64,000 nt of DNA from Reichenbachiella versicolor. Its GTDB lineage: Bacteria > Bacteroidota > Bacteroidia > Cytophagales > Cyclobacteriaceae. Where the stretch lies: NCBI RefSeq assembly GCF_003171675.1, contig NZ_QFZQ01000005.1, positions 434,001 to 498,000 on the forward strand, in the 5' to 3' direction. Positions 40,895 to 42,118 of this stretch are shown here, piece after piece (positions within the stretch are counted from its first letter, which is position 1; each line of letters begins with the position of its first letter). A model generated the notes under the pieces. It saw only the letters and a list, made by a program, of their open reading frames with translations. It was not told the DNA's origin and searched no databases. The translations under genes were made by a program, and so were the position numbers.

Positions 40895-40983
40895 TTGGGT
40901 CGTCTTATCTTAATTAAAAAAGTAATGTACTTATAAATATGCCTAATGATGAGCGATAATCAAATCCGAACTTGACTAAAAAA

Positions 40984-41001
40984 TTGTACAAAAGTGTACA
41001 A
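40984..41001. promoter_or_regulatory. Dyad upstream of the acyl-CoA ligase gene
   Basis: TTGTAC and GTACAA form a perfect 6-bp inverted repeat with a 6-bp spacer. It lies 90 bp before the ligase ATG and directly beyond the tRNA-like terminator, so it is most likely an operator for the ligase. The arrangement suits a TetR- or GntR-type regulator; which one is not known. Confidence 0.45.
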
Positions 41002-41009
41002 AGCAAAAA

Positions 41010-41029
41010 AGTCTGGCGCAAACCAGACT
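41010..41029 (-). terminator. Terminator of the tRNA-like unit
   Basis: On the minus strand AGTCTGG pairs with CCAGACT over a 6-nt loop and is followed by TTTTTT. It lies 35 bp past the third tRNA-like copy and ends that transcript. Confidence 0.93.
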
Positions 41030-41063
41030 CTTTCATTAAACAACATTAACCCAAAAATGATTG

Positions 41064-41172
41064 CTGTAGGAGAAGGATTCGAACCTCCACGAGGCGGTTA
41101 GACACAAAGTTTTATCCCTTTCCCTCACCCTCGAGACAGGAGGGCATGGCTGCCAAGTTTCATCACCCTACA
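41064..41172 (-). ncRNA. tRNA-like RNA copy 1 (class II, anticodon GUC)
   Basis: Last of three copies on the minus strand. TGTAGGG (positions 1-7) pairs with TCCTACA (66-72), and G73 follows. The T arm is GGAGG-TTCGAAT-CCTTC, the D stem ATG/CAT and the anticodon stem CCCTC/GAGGG around the loop CTGTCTC (anticodon GTC). Between the anticodon and T stems lie 39 nt instead of the usual 4-24. Within them GAGG pairs with CCTC around a conserved GGGATAA...CTAAC. A C before position 1 could pair with G73. A 6-nt linker and a 7-bp hairpin precede it. It could be a tRNA of aberrant shape or a structural RNA mimicking one. Length 109 nt. Confidence 0.72.
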
Positions 41173-41178
41173 GTGTAT

Positions 41179-41197
41179 GATTACTCTTCAAGTAATT
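41179..41197 (-). ncRNA. 5' hairpin of tRNA-like copy 1
   Basis: ATTACT pairs with AGTAAT across CTTCA on the plus strand, extended by a G-T pair to 7 bp. The stem ends 6 nt before the first base of the tRNA-like fold, the same distance as in the other two copies. Confidence 0.6.
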
Positions 41198-41211
41198 AAG
41201 AATTTCAAAAG

Positions 41212-41327
41212 CTGTAGGAGAAGGATTCGAACCTCCACGAAGCAGTTAGCTACATCCAAAAATGTGTTTATCCCTTATCTTCACCCTCGAGACAGGAGGG
41301 CACGGCTGCCTATTTCATCACCCTACA
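41212..41327 (-). ncRNA. tRNA-like RNA copy 2 (class II, anticodon GUC)
   Basis: The same fold as copy 1, 116 nt. The acceptor, T arm, anticodon stem and loop are identical in sequence. The D stem is ATG/CGT, with a G-T pair in place of A-T. In the variable region the short stem is GAAG/CTTC where copy 1 has GAGG/CCTC, a compensatory change; inside it a further ACAT/ATGT hairpin replaces the different loop of copy 1, while GGGATAA and CTAAC are kept. This pattern indicates selection on RNA structure rather than recent duplication alone. Confidence 0.72.
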
Positions 41328-41333
41328 GTGTAC

Positions 41334-41352
41334 GATCACTCTTTCAGTGATC
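41334..41352 (-). ncRNA. 5' hairpin of tRNA-like copy 2
   Basis: GATCACT pairs perfectly with AGTGATC across a 5-nt loop. It ends 6 nt before copy 2. Compared with the hairpin of copy 1, a T-A pair is replaced by C-G, so pairing is kept while sequence changes. Confidence 0.65.
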
Positions 41353-41367
41353 CAATATTTCAAAAAG

Positions 41368-41486
41368 CTGTAGGAGAAGGATTCGAACCTCCACGAAGCA
41401 GTTAGCCACTCTAAATGAAGAGCGTTTATCCCGTTGTCCTCACCCTCGAGACAGGAGGGTATGGCTGCCTATTTCATCACCCTACA
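41368..41486 (-). ncRNA. tRNA-like RNA copy 3 (class II, anticodon GUC)
   Basis: First copy in the transcript, 119 nt. Acceptor, T arm, anticodon loop CTGTCTC and anticodon stem are as in the others. The base before the anticodon stem is A (copies 1 and 2 have G). The variable region is the longest (49 nt): a GAGG/CTTC stem with one G-T pair, then GGGATAA, a hairpin GCTCT/AGAGT with a 6-nt loop, then CTAAC. The apical hairpin differs in sequence from copy 2, yet both pair. Aspartyl-tRNA synthetase identity bases G34, U35, C36, C38, G73 and G2-C71 are present in all three; G10 is A. Confidence 0.72.
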
Positions 41487-41492
41487 GTATAT

Positions 41493-41510
41493 AAAAGAAC
41501 TTTTTCTTTT
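41493..41510 (-). ncRNA. 5' hairpin of tRNA-like copy 3
   Basis: AAAAGAA pairs perfectly with TTCTTTT across a 4-nt loop and ends 6 nt before copy 3, matching the other two copies in stem length and spacing but not in sequence. Confidence 0.6.
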
Positions 41511-41523
41511 GCTTTTGTGATGA

Positions 41524-41531
41524 CAAAGGTA
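41524..41531 (-). promoter_or_regulatory. -7 box of the tRNA-like unit
   Basis: On the minus strand TACCTTTG is a perfect TAnnTTTG box. Transcription would begin near 41518, just before the first hairpin, and end at the terminator at 41010-41029, giving a primary transcript of about 510 nt. Confidence 0.6.
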
Positions 41532-41641
41532 AGGCAATCGCTCGGATTATTAAAAATATTTCATTAAAATAGAGTAATAATTAGACCTCATCTAACAAAT
41601 ATTATATTCCATTGAGTATTTCATAAAAACTGCTATAAAAC

Positions 41642-42118
41642 ATGTCTAAAAATTACGAAATTGATGAGATCGACTTAAAAATTCTTTCCCACCTTATGGA
41701 AGACGCTAAAACTCCTTACACTGAGATTGCTAAGAAAGTGTTCGTTTCAGGAGGAACTGTTCACGTTAGAATGAAAAAATTAGAAGAGATGGGAGTAGTG
41801 TTAGGAACTACGCTACAGCTAGACTACACTAAGCTAGGCTTTGATGTTACTTGTTTCTTAGGAATATATTTAGAGAAGAGTTCATTATATGACAAAGTGG
41901 TAAAGGAACTTAATCAAATACCCGAAATCGTAAAAGTTCACTACACTACTGGTAACTACAATATATTTATTAAGATTCATTGTAGAGATACGAATCATCT
42001 TAGAGAGGTCCTTCATGATAAAATTCAGATGGTAGAAGGTATCGACCGTACTGAAACCATTATATCCTTAGATGAAAGCCTAAGTAGACCGATAACCTTG
42101 ATAGATGACAATAAATAG
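41642..42118 (+). CDS. Lrp/AsnC-family transcriptional regulator
   Basis: A 158-residue regulator. The N-terminal helix-turn-helix (DEIDLKILSHLMEDAKTPYT and EIAKKVFVSGGTVHVRMKKL) is followed by a C-terminal ligand-sensing domain (about residues 70-145) of the RAM/AsnC type. Family members bind DNA as dimers or octamers and respond to amino acids. The long divergence from the tRNA-like unit (about 110 bp) suggests its own promoter. The next gene is pyrH, with its own promoter, so it seems monocistronic. The target genes are not evident. Confidence 0.94.
   Translation: MSKNYEIDEIDLKILSHLMEDAKTPYTEIAKKVFVSGGTVHVRMKKLEEMGVVLGTTLQLDYTKLGFDVTCFLGIYLEKSSLYDKVVKELNQIPEIVKVHYTTGNYNIFIKIHCRDTNHLREVLHDKIQMVEGIDRTETIISLDESLSRPITLIDDNK

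Follow-up and report, generated by a model that had tools for sequence, protein, structure and literature searches.

The window analysed here is a 64,000-nucleotide stretch of the Reichenbachiella versicolor genome (contig NZ_QFZQ01000005.1), in which three tandem tRNA-like units lie on the minus strand within positions 41010-41531, with a gene for an AsnC-like regulator encoded divergently (Table 1). An earlier, sequence-only reading, which gave no function, had described three class II tRNA-like units, each behind a 5' hairpin, in a set bracketed by a -7 box and an intrinsic terminator. The units were confirmed by sequence and covariance model and the bracketing elements by sequence, and the T tract of the terminator palindrome lies 3' of the hairpin on the minus strand. 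The points beyond that reading are the identity letters of the units, the divergent AsnC-like gene, a wider family and an association with GatCAB.

Each unit comprises a 7-bp acceptor stem (TGTAGGG/TCCTACA), a 3-bp D stem, an anticodon stem, a T arm and a variable-arm stem. The D arm (ATG..CAT) carries the loop GAAA..GGCAG, the anticodon stem (CCCTC/GAGGG) closes the loop CTGTCTC, and the T arm reads GGAGG-TTCGAAT-CCTTC with TTCGAAT as its loop. The variable arm consists of a 4-bp basal stem (GAGG/CTTC, GAAG/CTTC and GAGG/CCTC in the three units) and an asymmetric internal loop with approximately NNGGGATAAA on its 5' side and CTAACYG on its 3' side, topped by an apical hairpin whose sequence varies freely.

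Table 1 Features of the tRNA-like locus in the window; unit lengths count the C after the discriminator base
Feature	Position	Strand	Basis and remarks
-7 promoter box TACCTTTG	41524-41531	minus	Sequence; family-wide promoter count
Leader hairpin 1, AAAAGAA/TTCTTTT	41493-41510	minus	Sequence and folding; linker ATATAC, 41492-41487
tRNA-like unit 1, 120 nt	41367-41486	minus	DNA similarity and covariance model, 120.9 bits; U1:A72, G73, C74; anticodon loop CTGTCTC; variable arm with GGGATAAA...CTAACTG
Spacer hairpin 2, GATCACT/AGTGATC	41334-41352	minus	Read from sequence; linker GTACAC, 41333-41328
tRNA-like unit 2, 117 nt	41211-41327	minus	Covariance model, 121 bits
Spacer hairpin 3, ATTACTT/GAGTAAT	41180-41196	minus	Folding; linker 41179-41173
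tRNA-like unit 3, 110 nt	41063-41172	minus	Covariance model, 113.1 bits
3' trailer (AATCATTTTTGGGTTAATGTTGTTTAATG...)	41030-41062	minus	By eye; similar across the genus, partly in other families
Intrinsic terminator AGTCTGG-TTTGCG-CCAGACT with T tract	41004-41029	minus	Hairpin itself 41029-41010
AsnC-like regulator gene (Lrp/AsnC family)	41642-42118	plus	NCBIfam models

A covarying RNA family of the Bacteroidota

In the window no tRNA was called by ARAGORN and nothing reached the gathering score in Rfam, and a permissive Rfam search of positions 40900-41650 (E up to 10) gave neither a tRNA nor a match to Flavo-1, the motif that the sequence-only reading had named as a possible known relative. 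With respect to RF00005, the window units reach neither the gathering score nor an ARAGORN call, and a covarying cloverleaf is present. Copies were detected by DNA similarity in 16 of 19 genomes, own genome counted, and a covariance model built from 24 copies and run on 296 Bacteroidota genomes returned homologues with covariation at 76-121 bits in 31 of them. Two outcomes that would have refuted the sequence-only reading, a clear match to a known tRNA or Rfam family and a lack of covarying homologues, were therefore not obtained. Below 76 bits there was one match at 64.6 bits, followed by a continuum from 62.4 bits down, leaving a clear gap. In this search a carrier was defined as a genome with a match of at least 76 bits, as the E-value cut-off of the covariance search also lets ordinary tRNA-Leu through; indeed, all 20 lower-scoring matches that were fetched (51-62 bits) were ordinary tRNA-Leu. 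The 64.6-bit match, in genome G090 (genomes, loci and families are cited by our handles G, L and f), is a 77-nt compact member without the long arm, retaining U1:A72, G2:C71, U3:A70, G73 and U35/C36/C38 and having A34. Of the copies run through ARAGORN it alone was called as a tRNA, namely tRNA-Asp(ATC) (L253, 138-214), and databases may list members of this form as ordinary tRNA-Asp.

The family holds at least 176 distinct copies. Among the matches listed, named carriers belong mainly to Cytophagales, Chitinophaga and Saprospiraceae, the genera including Chitinophaga, Dyadobacter, Spirosoma, Algoriphagus, Cyclobacterium, Echinicola, Fulvivirga, Marinoscillum, Emticicia, Aquirufa and Portibacter; the same matches include many Saprospiraceae and Cyclobacteriaceae and a few metagenome-assembled genomes titled Flavobacteriales, Flavobacteriaceae or Sphingobacteriales. 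Outside the class GatB is common, and f53 (G293 and G301) is the only family in which the RNA was seen; no sampled member of the large families f12 and f13 carried it at 76 bits or more. Three genomes (G013, G014 and G018) were searched by DNA similarity only, so compact or diverged copies are possible there. The phage and plasmid sequences searched gave no match to the RNA, and an origin from a mobile element was rejected on this ground. Separately, L041 contains repetitive self-complementary DNA (2259-2443 and 2918-2984) with microRNA-like Rfam matches below gathering, which are probably spurious.

The covarying stems described in the sequence-only reading are borne out for the cloverleaf by both alignments. 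In 24 copies aligned with MAFFT, on which the structure was drawn by hand, 93.7% of cells pair, compared to 88.7% in shuffles. In 119 distinct rows the figure is 94.5%, against 83.9% when shuffled and 50-57% when slid, with 17 pairs altered on both sides and a covariation score of 0.362 vs 0.166, in an alignment that was fitted to the covariance model and hence leans towards the structure. Variable-stem types across the family include GGAG/CUCC, GGGG/CCCC, GAGG/CCUC, GAAG/CUUC and GGUG/CACC, and the D arm occurs as AUG/CAU, UUG/CAA, GUG/CAC and ACG/CGU; the anticodon stem is near-invariant and therefore carries little covariation information. The apical helix pairs in only 68.8% (24 copies) and 73.2% (119 rows) of cells. 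Folding z-scores of three stretches (-2.85, +0.63 and -0.95) count against a structure by folding energy, and single-sequence folding energy alone would not have revealed it; minimum-energy folds partly differ from the drawn cloverleaf, the support for which is comparative.

Family-wide, 28-119 nt lie above the basal stem of the variable arm, with conserved internal-loop letters. CUAA is found near the 3' side of this extended arm in 171 of the 176 distinct copies and a UUGACC-like motif within it in 55 of the 176. Long-armed copies (e.g. L025, L040-L046, L048 and L252) have a second conserved arm element, approximately GGGUUGACCACUAA, often located 3' of a hairpin with GCCG..CGAC.

Identity letters and co-occurrence with GatB

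According to PMC9976931, aspartate identity lies mainly in G73, G34, U35, C36 and C38; U1-A72 is what allows Asp-tRNA-Asn to be amidated, and G1-C72 and U20a protect tRNA-Asp from this reaction. Loop statistics were based on 67 copies (65 distinct) obtained by DNA similarity and covariance model, since the 119 named loci were chosen with a pattern fixing most anticodon-loop letters. In these 67 pattern-independent copies U1, A72, G73, C74, U35, C36 and C38 are invariant, so that all of them present both the letters of an AspRS substrate (G73, U35, C36 and C38) and the GatCAB-substrate pair U1:A72; position 34 is G in 59, C in five and A in three, and U33 is found in 55. Across all 176 distinct copies, from which the partial match L171 was left out, U1 occurs in 175, A72 in 176 and the U1:A72 pair in 175, with G2:C71 and U3:A70 in every copy. 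The 176-copy loop counts, which are influenced by the loop pattern of the named loci, give G34 in 167, U33 in 147 (another base in 29) and a pyrimidine (U or C) at position 37 in 174, with a purine in two.

Codon reading needs U33 and a purine at position 37. The non-U33 copies and the pyrimidine at 37 make decoding unlikely, and the product would not be expected to enter translation. The genome itself has tRNA-Asp with G1:C72, tRNA-Asn with U1:A72 and G73, and tRNA-Glu with A73 and U38. Set against these, the RNA has the look of an Asp/Asn hybrid built on a Leu-like body, with an anticodon loop of the Asp type and an acceptor end of the Asn type, combining AspRS determinants with the GatCAB pair U1:A72. 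Ordinary tRNA-Asp(GUC) is present twice in this genome, where 38 ordinary tRNAs were found in scoring 150 of 390 candidates; a role as an essential tRNA filling a gap in the set was rejected accordingly. By that count Ala(TGC) and Ile(GAT) are missing, presumably located in rRNA operons lacking from the assembly. The conserved C74 was discarded as a special feature, because every ordinary tRNA gene listed for the genome likewise has C after the discriminator. Other charging enzymes are disfavoured by the identity table of PMC9976931: for LeuRS and GluRS, the Leu and Glu tRNAs here have A73; for GlnRS, glutamine identity includes G36 and U38; and serine identity (SerRS) would leave the invariant anticodon letters unexplained.

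The distribution of the RNA was compared with that of GatCAB in 64 genomes, consisting of 31 long-form carriers, 10 carriers from DNA similarity (five others were left out) and 23 chosen non-carriers; GatCAB was scored by GatB (PF02934), AsnRS by TIGR00457 and GlnRS by TIGR00440. GatB was found in all 41 carriers vs 5 of the 23 non-carriers. None of these five has a GlnRS match, and they should thus need GatCAB for Gln-tRNA; G090, with its compact copy, is among them. With GatB in G090 and in all 41 long-form carriers, the RNA occurs, among these genomes, only where GatB occurs. Six carriers likewise gave no GlnRS match. Among the 53 genomes that do have GlnRS, and so should make Gln-tRNA without GatCAB, GatB accompanies the RNA in 35 of 35 carriers and occurs in 0 of 18 non-carriers (Fisher p 1.5e-14, ignoring descent). 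AsnRS exceeds its cut-off in 63 of the 64 genomes and in 52 of the 53.

The 73 genomes of the class in the phylum sample, which were not chosen by us, gave GatB in 29 of 29 long-form carriers vs 4 of 44 others, these four being G090, G059, G172 and G220. Five genomes of family f10 have both RNA and GatB and two have neither; in f11 the numbers are eight and two. In the two f10 genomes G020 and G140 (L220 and L221), where unit and GatB are both missing, inspection by eye shows that the surroundings are still in place: beside the AsnC-like gene there is a promoter-like box, and a terminator-like hairpin is kept together with a trailer like AGGTTTATAATTGGTTAG, with the unit itself absent from the interval.

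Flanking elements and neighbouring genes

The box TACCTTTG is taken to be of the Bacteroidota -7 type with the consensus TAnnTTTG. This consensus alone occurs in 103 of 138 distinct upstream regions of the RNA family vs 22.3 in shuffles, and TTG-N17-23-TAnnTTTG in 54 of the 138 vs 3.2. The 5' hairpins, to which the sequence-only reading had assigned identical 7-bp stems and identical 6-nt linkers, are real but vary more than supposed: the linkers measure 6, 6 and 7 nt (hairpins 1 and 3 by folding, hairpin 2 from sequence), and hairpin 3 reaches 7 bp, followed by the 7-nt linker, only if a closing U.G pair is counted. A stem of at least six pairs lies directly 5' of the unit in 10 of 11 distinct genus contexts (shuffled mean 1.3), compared to 40 of 169 contexts outside the genus (shuffled mean 18.2, maximum 28). 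Strong within the genus only, the hairpins fall outside the core of the RNA family and are not a defining part of it; they are mainly local elements, probably leaders or spacers.

The best NCBIfam model for the window regulator is AsnC (NF008384) with 174.5 bits, short of its cut-off of 227, and Lrp gives 56 bits. Neighbour counts were made in 99 named loci (100 of the 119 were taken), 85 of which have at least 900 nt upstream. In 50 of the 99, the gene divergently upstream of the RNA is AsnC-like, its product sharing 53.8-80.6% identity with the window protein. Other neighbours, named by reading, are SufB-like genes at a greater distance (23 loci) and acyl-CoA ligase-like genes close by (18 loci); the acyl-CoA ligase of the window was confirmed by Pfam. 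A gene read as a TrmB-like tRNA m7G methyltransferase follows the RNA on the same strand in some Chitinophagaceae-type loci (L217, L223 and L126 among them), 5 of the 99 in all.

The AspRS of this genome is of the bacterial type: it exceeds the cut-off of TIGR00459 by far, with 707.6 bits, and scores 218 with the non-discriminating model, below the latter's cut-off of 368. Of the GatCAB genes, gatA and gatB were looked for and found in the same genome, as was an AsnB-type gene. The AsnB-type gene is located about 1.4 kb from gatA and near a tRNA-Ala gene (L247, 8543-13245, contig C4 of G000). AsnA is found in 5 of 41 carriers vs 4 of 23 others. AsnB alignments were divided, by reading their coordinates, into a short form (profile about 1-385), seen in 1 of 41 vs 15 of 23, and a long AsnB-type form, which most carriers have.

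Interpretation and comparison with known systems

On balance, we favour the explanation that all units represent one tRNA-like RNA set aside for metabolism, which would bear an amino acid without reading codons, being charged with Asp and amidated to Asn. Processing of the transcript would follow that of a tRNA precursor, including addition of CCA, given that the units end in discriminator G and C like the ordinary tRNA genes of the genome. An ordinary bacterial AspRS may then charge it with aspartate, as suggested by U35, C36, C38, G73 and usually G34 under the published identity rules, and GatCAB may convert Asp-RNA to Asn-RNA, because U1:A72 separates tRNA-Asn from tRNA-Asp for this enzyme in those rules and the two co-occur in genomes. 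We infer that Asn would be released or handed on for asparagine supply and that the AsnC-like regulator probably controls the RNA gene. Such a hybrid RNA would allow a discriminating AspRS to provide GatCAB with its substrate. The conserved extended variable arm, which the compact G090 copy lacks, probably keeps the charged RNA off the ribosome or binds a partner, a speculative role. A further step is that bacteria with AsnRS and GlnRS keep GatCAB solely for the hybrid RNA and make asparagine on a molecule that stays outside the ribosome, with the arm as a release or sensing element and feedback through the AsnC-like protein; we lean slightly to the side of doubting this step.

Several observations weigh against the favoured explanation. 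Most carriers have an asparagine synthetase, only 5 of 41 (G017, G168, G208, G267 and G287) being without AsnA and AsnB over cut-off, so that absence of these enzymes as proof of need was only partly borne out by the counts; given the AsnB-type gene of R. versicolor, the RNA need not be the sole route to Asn there. An AsnRS over cut-off is missing from the carrier G009, and 39 loci with room upstream have no AsnC-like gene. GatB occurs without a detected RNA in G059, G172 and G220, of which G059, the one included in the GlnRS search, has no GlnRS. In the loci read, G002, G004, G006, G012 and G184 show only C34 or A34 copies, which breaks one AspRS determinant, and the compact G090 copy also has A34. 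PMC9976931 lists G10 for bacterial tRNA-Asp and describes G1:C72 as helpful to AspRS; position 10 of the RNA is A or U in 167 of the 176 copies and G1:C72 is absent. Finally, the 23 non-carriers were hand-chosen, though the unchosen class sample agrees, and presence and absence are shared by descent, so independent contrasts are only a few.

One alternative accepts charging and amidation, but a transferase would then hand the Asn to a lipid, peptide or cell-wall acceptor, or the Asn would signal Asn/Gln status to the AsnC-like regulator. Free Asn should be obtainable otherwise in most carriers, which keep an AsnB-type gene, and the conserved CUAA and UUGACC-like letters of the arm suggest a protein or ligand partner. 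However, no transferase-like gene was recognised by reading among the 25 commonest neighbour groups, the compact G090 copy lacks the arm, and an AsnC-like neighbour fits asparagine supply, making this alternative unlikely in our view. Somewhat less likely still is a tRNA mimic with a structural or regulatory role and no amino acid attached, with the GatCAB match as an inherited coincidence in one clade. Such a mimic would agree with the conserved internal loop and arm motifs, the relatedness of the species and the situation in f12 and f13, where the RNA reached 76 bits in none of the sampled genomes and GatB is confined to two f13 genomes (G172 and G220); it does not account for the invariance or near-invariance of U1:A72, G2:C71, U3:A70, G73 and U35/C36/C38, the joint absence of RNA and GatB inside two families, or the lack of GlnRS in all five GatB-positive non-carriers.

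The cloverleaf, T loop and CCA-ready end, the ARAGORN call of the compact copy as tRNA-Asp and the finding that the model's best ordinary tRNA in the genome is tRNA-Leu(GAG), at 55.7 bits, could point to a decoding tRNA, namely a long-armed tRNA-Asp(GUC), or to a decaying tRNA gene. Both are very improbable given the non-U33 copies, the pyrimidine at 37, the variable position 34 and the ordinary tRNA-Asp genes, while covariation and conservation oppose decay. A Y RNA-like mimic tethering Ro60 (TROVE protein), as YrlA does, was suggested by the GNCGA and UUGACC motifs of long-armed copies, which resemble Ro60-binding motifs. We give this reading almost no credence and rejected it for want of TROVE and YrlA matches: TROVE is missing from the own genome, from all but 4 of 45 genomes tested and from 15 of 16 tested genomes with UUGACC-like arms, and 12 long-armed loci gave no YrlA match at E up to 5. 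The four TROVE (Ro60-like) genomes are G009, G184, G016 and G301 (L051-L057), with no visible tie to the RNA distribution.

Among known RNAs, the units share with tRNA-Leu and other class II tRNAs (RF00005) the cloverleaf, a Leu-like D arm, the T loop and a long variable arm. They differ from the genome's own tRNA-Leu in having G73 rather than A73, U1:A72 and a non-Leu anticodon loop, and from class II tRNAs in the long extension above the basal variable stem and the missing ARAGORN and Rfam matches. We also see a likeness to YrlA and the bacterial Y RNAs in the tRNA-like module with a stem and in the UUGACC of some copies; unlike YrlA, the RNA has no Ro60 match in most carrier genomes tested and no Rfam YrlA match. 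The pseudo-tRNA tRNA-Other of Bacillus cereus, as described in PMC3399842, is also tRNA-like, is unused in translation and may sit in a larger regulatory RNA. It is, however, a single pseudo-tRNA beside a genomic island, whereas the present family occurs in many genera, is often multi-copy and tracks GatCAB.

Searches of an open-access library listed no RNA or route of this or a similar kind, subscription papers being mostly outside them. At the least, many cultured genera carry an RNA family for which Rfam has no entry. If the favoured explanation is true, cells keep a tRNA-shaped RNA solely for amino acid metabolism, a rare case in which the chemistry of RNA-bound amino acids has left a direct trace.

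The proposed chemistry has precedents, and the novelty would lie in giving it a separate RNA that does not decode. tRNA-dependent asparagine synthesis operates with tRNA-Asn, a non-discriminating AspRS and GatCAB in Deinococcus, Thermus and Bdellovibrio, and the survey that describes it counts 67-68 of 547 genera that retain GatCAB together with AsnRS and GlnRS; 49 of the 67 genera it tabulates have an asparagine synthetase, and GatCAB is regarded as possibly vestigial in some (PMC4206432). In genomes of this type the RNA would supply a substrate for GatCAB, in line with the 35/35 vs 0/18 distribution. The proposed pathway shares with the tRNA-Asn route the same two enzymatic steps, the same U1-A72 determinant and the same AsnRS, GlnRS and GatCAB setting. 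In the tRNA-Asn route, however, the carrier decodes and the synthetase has to be non-discriminating; the pathway proposed here would use a distinct RNA that reads no codons and has an Asp anticodon loop, for which an ordinary AspRS would do.
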